From NCBI GenBank assembly GCA_937928545.1, contig CALGJQ010000036.1, positions 62,001-126,000 of the forward strand: DNA of 64,000 nucleotides. The letters run 5' to 3'. A program made the translations under genes and the position numbers. This document shows, piece by piece, positions 29,026-35,759 of this stretch. The stretch comes from an uncultured Verrucomicrobiales bacterium (GTDB taxonomy: Bacteria > Verrucomicrobiota > Verrucomicrobiia > Verrucomicrobiales > Akkermansiaceae). A model generated the notes under the pieces. That model was not told the origin of the DNA, did no database searches, and worked only from the letters and a program-made list of their open reading frames with translations. The number at the start of each line of letters is the position of its first letter. Position 1 is the first letter of the stretch.

Positions 29026-29484
29026 TTACTGGAAGCTCTTTGCTTTGAGAGAGGACTGAATACCGGCGAGATAAGCCTTGGCACCACCTCCATTGTAGCC
29101 AGACATGGACTTAAAGACTTTACCCTTCGAGTCCATCAACATGACGGTAGGGTAGCTATTGATTTTGTATTTCTTGGCAACTTTCTTGTTCGCTGCAGCG
29201 GCGTCTTCGGGGAGCTTCTTCTTTTCTGGGAAGTCTAAAACGACGACGACAAAGTCCTTCTCAATTCCGGTTTGGAAGCTCTTCTTGGCGAAGACATCTT
29301 TGTTCAGTTTGATGCATGGAGGGCACCAATCGGAGCCGGTAAATTTGACGAGCAGGTTTTTGTTTTCAGCGGCGGCCTTCTTCTTTCCTGCTTCAAAGTT
29401 GGTGAGGTAGTCCCCTGCATTAGCGATGCTGACGGTAAGGGCAGCGACGAGAGCGAAAAGGGGGGCTTTCAATGTTTTCATCAT
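29026..29484 (-). CDS. Secreted thioredoxin-family protein
   Basis: A 152-residue protein with a signal peptide (MMKTLKAPLFALVAALTVSI, then ANA) and a thioredoxin-like domain. The active-site motif is C54-P-P-C57 in FTGSDWCPPCIKL. The cis-proline segment is SYPTVMLMDSKGK. It probably reduces or isomerises disulfides in the periplasm. It is unpaired with a membrane reductase in this window. The gene ends at a strong hairpin, so it is likely monocistronic. Confidence 0.9.
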   Translation of the reverse strand: MMKTLKAPLFALVAALTVSIANAGDYLTNFEAGKKKAAAENKNLLVKFTGSDWCPPCIKLNKDVFAKKSFQTGIEKDFVVVVLDFPEKKKLPEDAAAANKKVAKKYKINSYPTVMLMDSKGKVFKSMSGYNGGGAKAYLAGIQSSLKAKSFQ

Positions 29485-29558: not shown

Positions 29559-30149
29559 GTGAAACAACGTGTTATTGTCGCTACTCGGAACGCTCATAAG
29601 GTAGAGGAAATCAGGGCGATTCTCTCGGATTGTGAAGTGCTCGATCTTTCGGCAATTGAAGATCCTCCCGAGGTGGAAGAAACTGGCACGACCTTTGTTG
29701 AGAATGCGGCTTTGAAGGCAGAAGCGATCAGCGCCCTTACTGATGCGCTCGTGCTTTCGGATGATTCCGGACTCGAAGTGGATGCGCTCGATGGGGAGCC
29801 TGGTGTCTATTCGGCCCGTTATGCGGGGGAGGATGGCAATGATGCTTTGAACAATGCGAAGCTCTTGCGTGAGTTGAGTGGGAAAAAAGAACGAAGTGCT
29901 CGTTTCCGCTGCGTGATTTGCCTTGCCAGAAAGGGTGAGGTTTTGGCGGATTTTTCAGGAGCAGTGGAAGGGCGGATTTTGGAAGGAGAAAGCGGTGCCG
30001 GCGGGTTCGGCTATGATCCATTGTTCGCGCCCGATGGCTACGAGCAATCCTTCGCTGAACTCGGTGAAGAAGTGAAGAATGGGATGAGCCACCGCGCTCG
30101 GGCGTTGGAAGGAGTGGTGGCTTGGTTGTCTTCGATACGGCCTATTTAA
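29559..30149 (+). CDS. rdgB: XTP/dITP diphosphatase (non-canonical purine NTP pyrophosphatase)
   Basis: Removes XTP, ITP and dITP from the nucleotide pool, preventing incorporation of deaminated bases. The 196-residue length matches RdgB/HAM1. The N-terminal signature is VIVATRNAHKVEEI, the catalytic acidic cluster is SDDSGLEVDAL, and later segments are GVYSARYAG, GFGYDPLF and the MSHRARAL lysine/arginine region. Start GTG 29559 follows GAAGGGG. It converges on the rhamnosidase-like gene, and the two overlap by 8 bases at their stops. Confidence 0.93.
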   Translation: MKQRVIVATRNAHKVEEIRAILSDCEVLDLSAIEDPPEVEETGTTFVENAALKAEAISALTDALVLSDDSGLEVDALDGEPGVYSARYAGEDGNDALNNAKLLRELSGKKERSARFRCVICLARKGEVLADFSGAVEGRILEGESGAGGFGYDPLFAPDGYEQSFAELGEEVKNGMSHRARALEGVVAWLSSIRPI

Positions 30150-31767
30150 TCAGGATGGAGTAGGATCCTGAATGGCTGATCAAGCTGACGACGGTGTCGG
30201 TACGTGAGGCTTGATCGATGCCCAGGGCCTCTGCAAGGGGCTTTCCACTTTCAGTGATTTTCTGATCCTTCGTGCATGGAAGGATAATGCGGGCAAATGA
30301 TCCTGGGGGAGTCGAGAAATCAACTTTTAGGCCACCGTTTTCTAGCTTCTCCCAGCGGACCGTGATTTTTCCGGCCACTGAGTCGTAAGATGCTTGAACC
30401 CACGTGAGGCTGTCTCCGCTTGGGATACGGGGCGCGATTTTGACGTTTGTGAAGCCAGCGGAGGAGGCATCGATGCCGGCTAGGAAGCTCATGAGCCACT
30501 CGCTGACTCCGTTTCCGATGAAGGAACTTTTTTGCTCGTCTGTCAGCTGAGTGAGGAGGTCGATTGCTTTGTCCTGATTGTTAGTGAGGCTGAGCACGCT
30601 GGGGAGGAAGTAGGCGCCGATGGGGCCGACTTTAAGTCCATCTTTTTCGATTGAAGCTAGGAGGGAATCGATGATTATTTTTTGATTCTCTTTCTTGAGG
30701 ACGGCGCTGCGAAGAGCGAGAAGGTGGGCGCTTTGAGAAGCAACTTTCAGGTTACCATCTTCTTTGAGGAATTGATGGGTGAAGCTTTTCCGAATGCGTG
30801 CGGCGTAGTCTTGAAAGCGGATGACGTTGAGGGGTTGCTGCGCAGGGAGAGCGAGCTCGCGGGTTAAGCGGGTGGTGAATCCGAGGTAGCAAAGGTCGAG
30901 GAATTCTGCAGGGATCCCTTCGCGGGCTTTTAGGTCGCCCCAATTTGTTCCTTTGAAGGCTTTGTCGGCATTTTCGCGAGCGATCATGTGCTTTTCGAAG
31001 TGGGTCCAACGCTTTTTGACAAGATCGTGGTCGCCACCCATCCACCAGACGGGGTGATTGACGGTGATACCGGATTCTGAGGACAGGGCTCCGACAGATT
31101 TTGAGCCGGGTTTGATGGGGAAGAAGCCTTCCTTCGTGCGACTCTTATCCATCTGATGAATCCACTCGTTCAGGTGTGGGAGGGCATCGAAATGGTAAAG
31201 GATGGCTCTTGCGGAGCGGTGGACTTCTAAACCGGTGCCGAGTTCGGCAAGTCCGCCTTTTGAGGTCTTGGCAATCTGAGCGTCGAGTTTTTTGACGCTT
31301 TCTTGGTAGAGGGAGTTGAGTGCTTCTGAGCTGCTTTCGAAAGTTGAGATTCGAGCAGGTTTAAGGAGTTCCATTTTTCCGCCGACGGTGAAACTTGCGG
31401 GATCACTCCAGTCGCTTTCGGTCTCTTTTTCATCGTGAACTTTGACTTTCCAATGAACGTCTTGGCCTTCTTTGAGGGGTTTTCCGCCCCATGTGATGAG
31501 GTGTTTTGATGCTCTCTTTTGAAGTTTTGAATCCCAAAGGTCAGCAGCTTCTGGAGTGAGTTTGTCAGCTGAAGAAGCGGCGAGGATGTGGTATTTTTTT
31601 TGTCTCTTGGTCCGCTCGGTTGAGCTGAGTTTCCAGCTGAGGCGCGGGGTGTTGCTGACGCCGCTGGGGTTTGATTGGAAATCCACTTTGAGCCCGTCAA
31701 TCTGCAATGGTGCTGCGTGCCCAAGGATGAGAGATAGGAAAAGGATGGAGAAAATGCCTCGTTTCAT
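30142..31767 (-). CDS. Shortened alpha-L-rhamnosidase-like secreted protein
   Basis: A 540-residue protein with a signal peptide (MKRGIFSILFLSLILGHAAP) and an N-terminal region typical of GH78 rhamnosidases: the NPSGVSNTPRLSWKLSSTER segment, then YHILAASSADKL and DLWDSKLQ. The C-terminus resembles the beta-sandwich end of the family (GASYDSVAGKITVRWEK). The middle is short, and the acidic motif D-x-P-Q-R-D-E-R-x-G usually found in GH78 is not visible. It may therefore be a non-catalytic or binding form, or a diverged enzyme. Full-length relatives are usually about 900 residues. Confidence 0.6.
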   Translation of the reverse strand: MKRGIFSILFLSLILGHAAPLQIDGLKVDFQSNPSGVSNTPRLSWKLSSTERTKRQKKYHILAASSADKLTPEAADLWDSKLQKRASKHLITWGGKPLKEGQDVHWKVKVHDEKETESDWSDPASFTVGGKMELLKPARISTFESSSEALNSLYQESVKKLDAQIAKTSKGGLAELGTGLEVHRSARAILYHFDALPHLNEWIHQMDKSRTKEGFFPIKPGSKSVGALSSESGITVNHPVWWMGGDHDLVKKRWTHFEKHMIARENADKAFKGTNWGDLKAREGIPAEFLDLCYLGFTTRLTRELALPAQQPLNVIRFQDYAARIRKSFTHQFLKEDGNLKVASQSAHLLALRSAVLKKENQKIIIDSLLASIEKDGLKVGPIGAYFLPSVLSLTNNQDKAIDLLTQLTDEQKSSFIGNGVSEWLMSFLAGIDASSAGFTNVKIAPRIPSGDSLTWVQASYDSVAGKITVRWEKLENGGLKVDFSTPPGSFARIILPCTKDQKITESGKPLAEALGIDQASRTDTVVSLISHSGSYSILIK

Positions 31768-31892
31768 TGAGGGATAAGAAAACCTTCCTGACTGGGTTTC
31801 GCAAGTCGTATCCAATTTTTCCCGACCGTTGGCTAGGCGGAAGGATTAGGAGCTCAAAGATTGAACAGGGCAATGGCTTAGGACTTAGGGGC

Positions 31893-33836
31893 TCAAAATC
31901 TCAGGGGCTTCTTCATCCTGTATGTTGAAAGGTCGTTTTTGAGCTGAGAGCTGAGAGTTTTCTCCGAAATTTTCAGGGCCTCAACGCAGAGAGTTTCGGC
32001 TTTTTTAAATTCACCTAGGTTGGCGTGGGCGGCGGCCGCTGTTCTTAGAAATAGTGCTCGGTCTTTCCCTGGTGCTTGGAGAAGAGGGGCGATGACCTTC
32101 TTTGCAAGGGGAGCATTTCGAATTTCCTCTGAAGGAGCGGTGCAAAGAATCCAAGCGATATTATTTCGAGCGACTAACTGTTGTGAATCTTTCCGGACCG
32201 CTTTTTGGTAAGCGTTGAGAGCCTCCTGCCAATTGCCCATTGCTTGGTGAATGAGCCCTTCGCAGAAAAGCAAGACAGGATCTTGAGGCTTGGACTTGAG
32301 TGCGGTTTTAGTGGCTGAGAGGGCTGCTTCGGCTTCTCCAATTTGTATGGCCGAAAATGTGAGTAAGCTGACGTTTGCTGATTCAGTTGGCTCAAGTTTG
32401 ATAAGCTGGGTCAGGACAGGGAAAGCTTCACGGTGTTGTCCTTGATCGTATAGAATTCGGGAAAGCTCCTTGAGTGATAGGAGGTGATTGGGCTGGGTAG
32501 CGAGAGTCTGCCGATAGGCAGAAATGGCTTTTTCTTCTTCCCCAATTTTGAAATGGAGGCGAGCCAAGCTGAAATTCAGTTCGAAAACGGGACGGGAGCG
32601 AAGTGGAGCAGTGCCATTTTTGGAAGCTGAAATCTCAGCATTCAGATAAGTGATGGCTTCTCCGGTCAAACCTTCGTCGTGCATTAGTAAGGCAATTTTA
32701 CTGGGATCGACGCCGCGTGGTTGCTTCCACCAGAGGCCAGGATAGGGAATGGACGCTGCTAGCCGGTCCATTTCACTGAGGTTGAGTAAAGCTAAGTCTT
32801 CCACGATCTGGAGTGGGGTAACCGGCCCTCGGTAAACGACCGCGACTCTGCCTTGCTCATCCAGAAGAAAACTAGTCGGGGTCATGAGTGGGAGGTGGAT
32901 GGCTGAGATGGCCTGCTGAAAGGCGTCAATGCTTCCAACTTCCCTTGGCTTGAGATTCCATTGCGGGAAAGAAACACCGAGTTCATTGAGCTTCTCGAGA
33001 GCTAGTTGCTCATCTGAGTCGACGTTCATTAGCTGTATGTTCAATCCTGCATCAGCGAAGACCTTAGGGCTCTGAGACCAGGTTTTGAGTTCGTCGAGAC
33101 AGACCGGGCAGCTGGCCGACCAGAGGGAGATTAGATTTGGTTTGGCCTTTTCCTTCTTAGGAAGGGCGAAAGGGAAAAGGGGGCGGTTGGCGATGATGAG
33201 TCGCCCGGCGTTCGTAAGAGAAGGTGCTTCAAGTGCGCCTGGCGTTAGGGGGAAACGATCTTTAGTTGGAGCAGTCCAGGCGACCGGATCACGCCCTTCG
33301 TTCACTCGGTATTTTCCCCCTGCTTCAATTTGAGATAACTCCTGTTGTGTTCCTTGTGGCCATATGATGCGAGTTGAGATGATGTTCCGGTAATTTCCCA
33401 AACCAAAGTGGACCCAGGATGAGGACTGGGAAAGATAAGTCCCGCCTGCAGACAGGGTCCGAGATTGTTTGATTTCGTCCCCGTTTGGATCGCGGCTGAC
33501 AATGGTAATGCGAGCGCCAACGGCATTTCGATTTCCTACGGAGCCCTTTAGAAATAGAGAAACTGAGGAATTTTCGGTATTTTGATCATTGCGAAGGAAT
33601 CGCACGGTAGGGGCCGTCCGATTCACCATCCAGATATCGAGATCTCCATCAAAATCCCAATCAACGAATCCGAGGGCGCGGGAATCATCGATGAAGTTAA
33701 ACCCGGTAGCTGCGGAAACATCGGCAAAGCGAGTTGTGCCATCGCGTTGAGCGAGATTTAGGAAGCATGAATTTGGTTCACGGCCGCTGAGTGATTTGCC
33801 TCGGGCGAGGAGTCGGGTGATGGCTGCCCAGCCCAT
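31893..33836 (-). CDS. ASPIC/UnbV, redoxin and TPR protein (C-terminal part of a UGA-split CRTAC protein)
   Basis: From ATG 33836 this reads 647 residues. It has the end of an FG-GAP propeller (FVDWDFDGDLDIWMVNR), an ASPIC/UnbV domain (VGARITIVS, then WVHFGLGNYRNI), and a TlpA-like redoxin with a CxxC site in LWSASCPVCLDEL. A run of TPRs with a final TPR-like tail follows. The frame is continuous, upstream of its ATG, with the next gene except for one UGA at 33909-33911; the 24 codons between read SFFWRRVAAQSPEKITPQLG, then DDYL, as expected of the CRTAC family. It is likely the second half of one protein. GGAG 12 bases before the ATG could allow independent start. Confidence 0.8.
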   Translation of the reverse strand: MGWAAITRLLARGKSLSGREPNSCFLNLAQRDGTTRFADVSAATGFNFIDDSRALGFVDWDFDGDLDIWMVNRTAPTVRFLRNDQNTENSSVSLFLKGSVGNRNAVGARITIVSRDPNGDEIKQSRTLSAGGTYLSQSSSWVHFGLGNYRNIISTRIIWPQGTQQELSQIEAGGKYRVNEGRDPVAWTAPTKDRFPLTPGALEAPSLTNAGRLIIANRPLFPFALPKKEKAKPNLISLWSASCPVCLDELKTWSQSPKVFADAGLNIQLMNVDSDEQLALEKLNELGVSFPQWNLKPREVGSIDAFQQAISAIHLPLMTPTSFLLDEQGRVAVVYRGPVTPLQIVEDLALLNLSEMDRLAASIPYPGLWWKQPRGVDPSKIALLMHDEGLTGEAITYLNAEISASKNGTAPLRSRPVFELNFSLARLHFKIGEEEKAISAYRQTLATQPNHLLSLKELSRILYDQGQHREAFPVLTQLIKLEPTESANVSLLTFSAIQIGEAEAALSATKTALKSKPQDPVLLFCEGLIHQAMGNWQEALNAYQKAVRKDSQQLVARNNIAWILCTAPSEEIRNAPLAKKVIAPLLQAPGKDRALFLRTAAAAHANLGEFKKAETLCVEALKISEKTLSSQLKNDLSTYRMKKPLRF

Positions 33837-33880
33837 GAGGTAGTCGTCTCCGAGCTGGGGTGTGATTTTTTCGGGTGATT

Positions 33881-33911
33881 GCGCCGCGACCCGGCGCCAG
33901 AAGAAACTTCA
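33881..33911 (-). other. In-frame UGA followed by a GC hairpin
   Basis: The TGA at 33911-33909 is the only stop between two halves of one otherwise continuous reading frame. Eleven bases after it (33897-33881) is a perfect hairpin, GCGCCG-GGTCG-CGGCGC. The loop begins 18 bases after the UGA and has G at both of its first two positions. Loop position and the loop GG fit the general form of bacterial SECIS elements, but such stems arise by chance in GC-rich coding sequence. Confidence 0.45.
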
Positions 33912-35759
33912 CAAGTCAGCGGGGTCCTCGCCGGTCATAAAGCCATTGGCGACGAGGATATCCTCCCATCCATCATTGTTTATATCGACCATTCGGGAAG
34001 CCCAGGCCCAGCGCCCAAGAGTGATGCCGGCGTCTTCACTGATATCGTCAAAGCCTCCAGAGCGACCGCTGAGTAAGGTGTTTCCACGACTCATTCTAAG
34101 GAAGTGATCCCGAGTTTCTGAGGTGGCTTCCGTCATGAACTGAGATTGGGTGGTGATTCGATTGCCGGCTCCCGAGAACATGTTGCTTACGTGGATATCG
34201 GGAAATCCGTCATTGTTAGGATCACCCCAAGAGGCCGACATGCTGGGTGAGAGGTCTTCTGATCCCGTTTGCGGGGCAACATCACGAAATTTTAGTGATC
34301 CTTCATCGCTCACGTTTTCGTAGAGGTTATTTCTTCCGAAGTCGTTGGCGACATAGAGGTCGAGGTCTCCGTCGAGGTCGTAGTCAGCCCATGCTGCAGA
34401 AAGGGACCAGCGGGTGTTGTTGTGATGAAAGCCTGATTGCGTTGTTTGGTCTTCAAAGTTCCAATCTCCTAAATTTCGGAGGAAGAGGTTTTCACCGCCG
34501 TTGTTGGCATCATGCATCGGAAGGGGAATGTGATGTTTGTAGTCTCCTAGGCCGCCCCAAACGCTTCCATATCCGCACACAAATATGTCAAGAAAGCCGT
34601 CATTGTCGGGATCCGCCGCCGCCATTCCAAATGGAGCTCCCTTGGCCTTGATTTCGAAGCGCTTTGTGAAGCGGGCCGTTCCGTCGTTTTCCATGAAGAC
34701 AATTCCATTGGGAATATTTAGGACGAGATCGTTGTCGTCGTCTTGATCAAGATCGATGATCAGGACGGTTCTGGTGTCATTTAGGAAGTTGGCTCGTGAT
34801 TCTTCACTGTGATCAAGAAGTCTGCCGTCTGTGCTTTGTAAGAGGATGCGGTTGGGGATTCCTCCGGTTTGGCAAAAATAGAGGTCATCAAGTCCGTCCC
34901 CATTGAGATCACCGATGCTGAGACCATTGTATCCATTGGTAGAAACTCCTAAGTCTTTATCGACTGAGCGTATCCAATGTGGGAGTCCGCGGGAGAGCTG
35001 ATCACGGACTTCTTCTTGCGGCAGAAGAGACTCTGTGCAGTCGAGAAAGAGTCGGGATGATGAGGCCTGGCTCCGAATTTCTTGGTAGCGAATTCGCTCA
35101 ATGGATTGAATCAAGGGGAGCTCATCTCGTGTCCATTTGACGTTCCACTCGGTATTGATCTGAACGCTTTCGCCTTCTTGCTTATGTCCGTCTAAGAGAA
35201 CGATCACTTTTGTGCTTATCGAAAACTCGGAGGGATGCACGCGATAGATCTTAAACTTGGAGTGAGGGTGCTCGAACTCGTCTAGAATTTTGCCAAGAGA
35301 ATCTAAGGCTTTCGTTGGACGAGTTGTGAGACTCTTTTGTCTAGAGCTGTCGCTGGGTGCATTTTGGTCCTCTAGGACTCGGAAGCCATTTTGATGATAG
35401 GCTACGGTAAGGTCTGAGGGGAGAGGCCGGAGGAGAGTTGACTGAGCATTCGGAGTGAAGAGATTCTCGAAATTTCTATTCCCGTTTGCTGTTTTTTGGG
35501 TGAGTGATACACCTAATGTTTTGAGACGTTTTCCCGCCATGGATTCAAAAACTTCGGTATCCCAGCCATCAACTTTGGGATCAATACGATTCAGCTCCTC
35601 TTTCAGTTTTTGGCTGAATCCATTTTCAATCGCTTGGGGTGGAATGGCTTCCTTTGTTTCCGTCTCATGAGTTGGCTGGGCGGTTTCCTTGCACGAAGGA
35701 AGGAAGATGAGTCCCAGTCCGATGAGGATTGAGGTGATAGGCTGAGTGGAAAAAGTCAT
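33909..35759 (-). CDS. CRTAC-type FG-GAP lipoprotein (N-terminal part of a UGA-split protein)
   Basis: A 616-residue product from ATG 35759, with a lipobox leader (TSILIGLGLIFLPSCKE), so it is probably membrane-anchored by a lipid. After a helical N-terminal region it contains an FG-GAP/VCBS beta-propeller whose calcium-binding blades are seen in GDLNGDGLDDLYF, DLDQDDDNDLVLN, ADPDNDGFLDIFVC, DYDLDGDLDLYVAND, GDPNNDGFPDIHVSN and DINNDGWEDILVANGF. It ends ...GEDPADL at UGA 33911. The following codons continue the same family in frame, so this is the first part of the adjacent ASPIC/redoxin/TPR protein, or a recently split gene. Confidence 0.85.
   Translation of the reverse strand: MTFSTQPITSILIGLGLIFLPSCKETAQPTHETETKEAIPPQAIENGFSQKLKEELNRIDPKVDGWDTEVFESMAGKRLKTLGVSLTQKTANGNRNFENLFTPNAQSTLLRPLPSDLTVAYHQNGFRVLEDQNAPSDSSRQKSLTTRPTKALDSLGKILDEFEHPHSKFKIYRVHPSEFSISTKVIVLLDGHKQEGESVQINTEWNVKWTRDELPLIQSIERIRYQEIRSQASSSRLFLDCTESLLPQEEVRDQLSRGLPHWIRSVDKDLGVSTNGYNGLSIGDLNGDGLDDLYFCQTGGIPNRILLQSTDGRLLDHSEESRANFLNDTRTVLIIDLDQDDDNDLVLNIPNGIVFMENDGTARFTKRFEIKAKGAPFGMAAADPDNDGFLDIFVCGYGSVWGGLGDYKHHIPLPMHDANNGGENLFLRNLGDWNFEDQTTQSGFHHNNTRWSLSAAWADYDLDGDLDLYVANDFGRNNLYENVSDEGSLKFRDVAPQTGSEDLSPSMSASWGDPNNDGFPDIHVSNMFSGAGNRITTQSQFMTEATSETRDHFLRMSRGNTLLSGRSGGFDDISEDAGITLGRWAWASRMVDINNDGWEDILVANGFMTGEDPADL

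Follow-up and report, generated by a model that had tools for sequence, protein, structure and literature searches.

The analysed DNA, referred to here as the window, is a stretch of 64,000 nucleotides from an uncultured Verrucomicrobiales bacterium (contig CALGJQ010000036.1). On its minus strand, ORF translation from 35759 to 31893 gave 616 codons, a TGA (33911–33909), 671 further codons and a terminal TGA. This bore out the initial annotation, in which a lipoprotein and a redoxin/TPR protein had been placed in one reading frame with that TGA as the sole break. If the UGA is read as selenocysteine (Sec), the complete gene (31893–35759) would encode 1,288 aa with Sec617, and the frame is similarly unbroken in homologues of three phyla. 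The protein begins with a signal peptide and likely lipobox (LPS-Cys23; 35691–35759, minus strand like all features of the gene), recognized in the translation with the motif judged by eye. A CRTAC-type FG-GAP beta-propeller (aa 240–730; 33570–35042) was identified by Pfam FG-GAP_3, an AlphaFold2 model and a match to murine CRTAC1. The in-frame UGA, the putative Sec codon (aa 617; 33909–33911), falls at a predicted helix start. Further downstream are a UnbV_ASPIC domain (Pfam PF07593, aa 746–815; 33315–33524), a TlpA/ResA-like thioredoxin domain (aa about 870–987; 32799–33152) whose CxxC is formed by Cys884 and Cys887, and a TPR region detected with Pfam (aa about 1061–1270; 31950–32579). An FG-GAP propeller followed by ASPIC/UnbV is the arrangement of CRTAC1/ASPIC-UnbV proteins.

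The previously proposed architecture of lipobox, propeller, ASPIC/UnbV, redoxin and TPR was thus recovered, except that the redoxin match is weak in the window gene (Redoxin, E 7e-4, under the Pfam cut-off, with the motif WSASCPVC present) but clear in homologues (AhpC-TSA/Redoxin, E about 1e-11 to 1e-13). The window CxxC and the homologue matches together identify a thioredoxin-like domain of the TlpA-like oxidoreductase type. In Pfam searches the order propeller, ASPIC, AhpC-TSA/Redoxin, TPR was common to the members tested from other phyla. A WCxxC-type motif was present in 78 of 80 long homologues, about 260–290 residues C-terminal of Sec, and the CxxC domain was absent from 19 short members. 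The AlphaFold2 model of the propeller had a pLDDT of 91.7, with Sec as the first residue of a helix (378–388, model numbering), and the nearest solved structure was murine CRTAC1 (PDB 9etn; Z 43.5, rmsd 2.3 over 445 residues, 19 % identity). Two further propeller cysteines, at window aa 296 and 395 (C57 and C156 of the model), were retained by 29 and 24 of 34 members, respectively, and are possible partners of Sec. A small secreted thioredoxin-like protein (SDWCPPC) is encoded 2.4 kb further downstream, likewise on the minus strand (29026–29484), and is a possible reductant partner. The downstream neighbour (30142–31815, minus strand) has, as judged by eye, the look of an alpha-L-rhamnosidase-type protein. 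Pfam annotation of genes neighbouring family members revealed no shared partner and gave no hint of a substrate.

A total of 84,980 species genomes were scanned with the region around the UGA site, and homologues were found in Verrucomicrobiota, Planctomycetota and Acidobacteriota. Aligned homologues were broken at the identical place, D-L-*-S-F-F-W-R-Q-V-V, and identity ran on across the UGA. The stop was TGA in 73 of 73 first homologues and later in 113 of 113; with loci from whole genomes added to the scan homologues, all 145 distinct homologous stops were TGA, with no TAA or TAG. Agreement of this kind in three phyla goes far beyond chance and would hardly be expected of ordinary termination. 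It had been stated beforehand that a stop at this position in homologues would count against a single gene. Such a stop was found, but it is always UGA followed by a SECIS-like hairpin, which supports recoding. Residues directly after the UGA were among the best conserved. Between the TGA and the ATG at 33836 lie 24 codons of family sequence, as had been claimed, and the first 12 of them are identical in amino acids to those of the closest homologue. As dN/dS reached saturation when computed across each entire half, amino-acid conservation was used instead. Some subfamilies had U-S-C, U-T-C or U-N-C at the site, a UxC spacing that is listed for other selenoproteins (PMC13188914). A divergent subfamily of the same genus (L155, L156, L162, L168 and L171) reads TAPKxxATEVDL-U-SCFW, with Cys two residues after Sec, and has its own hairpin. 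At L160, L161, L162 and L168, a pair of TGA-bearing members is found in close proximity, one on each strand.

A SECIS-like hairpin (GCGCCG-GGUCG-CGGCGC; 33881–33897, apical loop 33887–33891) was found by folding and covariation 17 nt 3′ of the UGA, with a 6-bp stem, loop GGUCG and a folding energy of −11.4 kcal/mol for the hairpin alone. Across 59 distinct sequences, the bases paired in 97.5 % of stem cells, and changes on both sides occurred in 23 cells compared with 1.1 in shuffles; stem pair 18–28 was seen as AU, GU, GC, CG and UG. The window gene departs from the usual GCGAC/GUCGC stem in having GCGCC/GGCGC, alongside a Val-Ser to Ala-Ala replacement. Codon choice in the stem was strongly fixed (GTC, GTG, TCG). 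Of 145 TGA sites, 105 had the full 6-bp stem, whereas none of the 18 sense-codon homologues that keep the protein motif had it; at the remaining 40 TGA sites the exact register was missing, with a shifted hairpin in some subfamilies. Published bSECIS rules specify a hairpin 16–37 nt after the UGA, G in the first two loop positions and an MFE of −7.5 kcal/mol or lower (PMC13188914), and the window gene conforms to them. In lenient form these rules fitted 96 of 113 TGA sites compared with 130 of 678 control positions taken from these genes, but they also passed nine of 18 sense sites, and only the strict stem separated TGA from sense. The GU of the loop is confounded with an invariant Val codon. 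Since single-sequence folding z-scores were unremarkable, the case for the hairpin rests on covariation and on presence/absence. No Rfam match was obtained at the site.

Homologues with a sense codon at the site read as one continuous frame. Among the 18 that bear the motif, Cys occupied the exact site in two, a paralogue in the window's own genome (L120, DDYCSTFWR) and a locus of another genome (L153 in G004). Cys counterparts therefore exist but are few. The other 16 motif-bearing sense homologues (L203–L218) are paralogues from Planctomycetota in which the site is occupied by E, Q, N, H, R or A, and several of their genomes hold TGA copies too. Non-Sec forms lie mostly in a few clades, and a quick tree, to which no formal test was applied, indicated about six changes between Sec and non-Sec.

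The search of the window genome for Sec genes, suggested in the initial annotation, recovered selA (480 bits), selB (319 bits), selD (381 bits) and a tRNA-SeC with anticodon tca, so the machinery for Sec insertion is encoded in the same genome as the gene. SelB scored over its curated cut-off in 33 of 36 gene-bearing genomes compared with seven of the 195 genomes in a phylum sample, within which the UGA gene was seen only in the window's genome. The three gene-bearing genomes with no SelB over the cut-off (G227, G250 and G257), and genus members G005 and G008, which likewise had none, are probably incomplete or divergent, yet G257 has eight matches. Sec-type SelD itself carries an in-frame TGA, and one such codon was present in SelD of the window genome (L108, G000:C13:27449-28378). 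Near selA, a 126-aa frame (L106/L107, G000:C5:11411-11764) matches two pieces of SelA and is perhaps a truncated SelA duplicate.

Four explanations of the break had been offered without a choice between them. Two of these, a recent nonsense mutation and a read error, were ruled out because the TGA is conserved across phyla; the same codon is found in a 72 %-identical homologue from another assembly as well as in all three phyla, leaving the probability of either negligible. A third was that the UGA is a true stop, with two separate, coupled proteins and the second translated from the ATG at 33834–33836 or nearby. Gene finders would indeed call two genes, and a stop stands at the same place in many homologues; however, that stop is always TGA, and the proposed restart codon is not conserved, with many homologues having no Met within 45–60 codons 3′ of the site. 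Conservation in the 12 codons that follow the UGA is among the highest, the split would, according to the model, fall within the propeller fold, sense-codon homologues are continuous and the full stem is gone wherever the UGA is gone. Two separate proteins are accordingly highly improbable, and restart at this ATG was not upheld.

The fourth explanation, recoding of the UGA, was strongly supported, and specifically as Sec. Insertion of another amino acid, Trp or that of a near-cognate suppressor, could draw on a single distant Bacteroidota homologue (L069) that aligns Trp at the site, but no TGG was present at the site among motif-bearing homologues, and the covarying hairpin tracks the UGA. 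The complete Sec machinery is moreover strongly associated with the gene, Cys counterparts exist, and TGA terminates ordinary genes of the window (four of 30 ORFs of 300 aa or more), which together make such recoding about as improbable as a true stop. In a variant that is compatible with a selenoprotein, Sec insertion would be incomplete by design, and the availability of selenium would determine how much propeller-only form is made relative to the full selenoprotein. In characterized bacterial systems termination and UGA decoding compete, and the short form would retain the signal peptide; against this, termination would cut the modelled propeller before its last blade and the short form may not fold. 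Regulation of this kind is considered unlikely.

Conservation of the TGA, a covarying hairpin that is lost in sense homologues, Sec machinery in the genome and the existence of Cys counterparts together indicate that the gene encodes one selenoprotein in which the UGA at 33911–33909 is read as Sec, with an estimated probability of roughly 0.93. This comparative sequence evidence suggests that selenium is actually inserted into the protein. SelB and tRNA-Sec(UCA) would insert Sec at the UGA, guided by the SECIS hairpin 17 nt downstream, and the hairpin stretch would double as coding sequence for the conserved peptide WRxVV. The product would be an exported lipoprotein composed of a CRTAC1-like propeller, ASPIC/UnbV, a TlpA-like CxxC domain and TPRs, with Sec617 predicted as the first residue of a helix within a propeller loop.

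The helix-start position of Sec, the fused CxxC domain and the UxC motifs point to an extracytoplasmic selenol oxidoreductase. Sec617 may be its catalytic centre, re-reduced by the CxxC domain of the same chain, although the odds of this are put at slightly less than even. Against this function, short members are without the CxxC domain, which indicates that it is dispensable in some members, and non-redox residues replace Sec in paralogues. In sense homologues E, Q, N, H, R or A are commoner than Cys, which is unusual for a redox Sec. A more speculative and rather doubtful proposal is that these proteins represent a new kind of selenium active site, in which a calcium-loop beta-propeller bears on its face a Sec whose chemistry Cys can rarely take over. 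Such a site might handle peroxide or metals and be recharged in cis by the thioredoxin domain of the same protein; the family would have expanded to as many as about 18 copies per genome, forming a set of extracytoplasmic selenoenzymes.

The domain was present in 23 of 27 genomes of the genus, with up to 18 matches per genome and exactly one TGA in nearly every listed copy, and the gene was found in 80 of 294 sampled genomes of Planctomycetota. The published maximum for a bacterial selenoproteome is about 46 per genome (PMC12013277), and a genome bearing as many as about 18 of these genes would have one of the larger bacterial selenoproteomes. No FG-GAP, CRTAC or UnbV entry, and no motif D-L-U-S-x-x-W-R, is contained in a catalogue of 119 prokaryotic selenoprotein families published in 2026 (PMC13188914, Table 1); there is no NCBIfam Sec model at the site. 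Full-text searches of the open-licence literature returned no earlier report of an UnbV, FG-GAP or CRTAC1 selenoprotein, and a mention elsewhere is possible. The main text of a Porphyra–Planctomycetes selenoprotein study names no FG-GAP, CRTAC or ASPIC protein (PMC4807772). Sequence comparison indicates what is apparently a large, new selenoprotein family, absent from the catalogue, that has a known fold and is represented in at least three bacterial phyla. The rarity of Cys counterparts would help explain why it was overlooked by methods based on Cys/Sec pairs, a reliance that is conceded as a limitation by the deep-Sep authors (PMC12013277), and standard gene finding splits these genes in two. 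The scaffold, previously unlisted as a Sec carrier, would carry Sec in roughly a quarter of the sampled Planctomycetota, as well as in Verrucomicrobiota and Acidobacteriota. The proposed activity provides a testable role for the bacterial ASPIC/UnbV–CRTAC architecture, for which no assigned function was found.

The gene shares with bacterial bSECIS selenoproteins, such as the E. coli formate dehydrogenase FdhF, an in-frame UGA, a G-looped hairpin at the published distance and selA/B/C/D; it differs from them in its uncatalogued CRTAC/ASPIC scaffold and in the rarity of Cys counterparts. FG-GAP proteins annotated as 'CRTAC1 family protein' adjoin hydrazine-synthase-like genes in a report that makes no mention of selenocysteine (PMC12758564), and they share a broad annotation with the Sec group. 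With the extracytoplasmic thioredoxins TlpA and ResA the likeness lies in the C-terminal WCxxC-type domain and its AhpC-TSA/Redoxin match, but here this domain is fused behind a Sec-bearing propeller and the window's own copy scores weakly. The propeller and ASPIC domain are shared with CRTAC1/ASPIC-UnbV proteins (PF13517 and PF07593; PDB 9etn), whereas identity to CRTAC1 is 19 % and the bacterial members add a putative Sec within a loop of their propeller and, in many cases, TPRs and a CxxC domain of the TlpA type.
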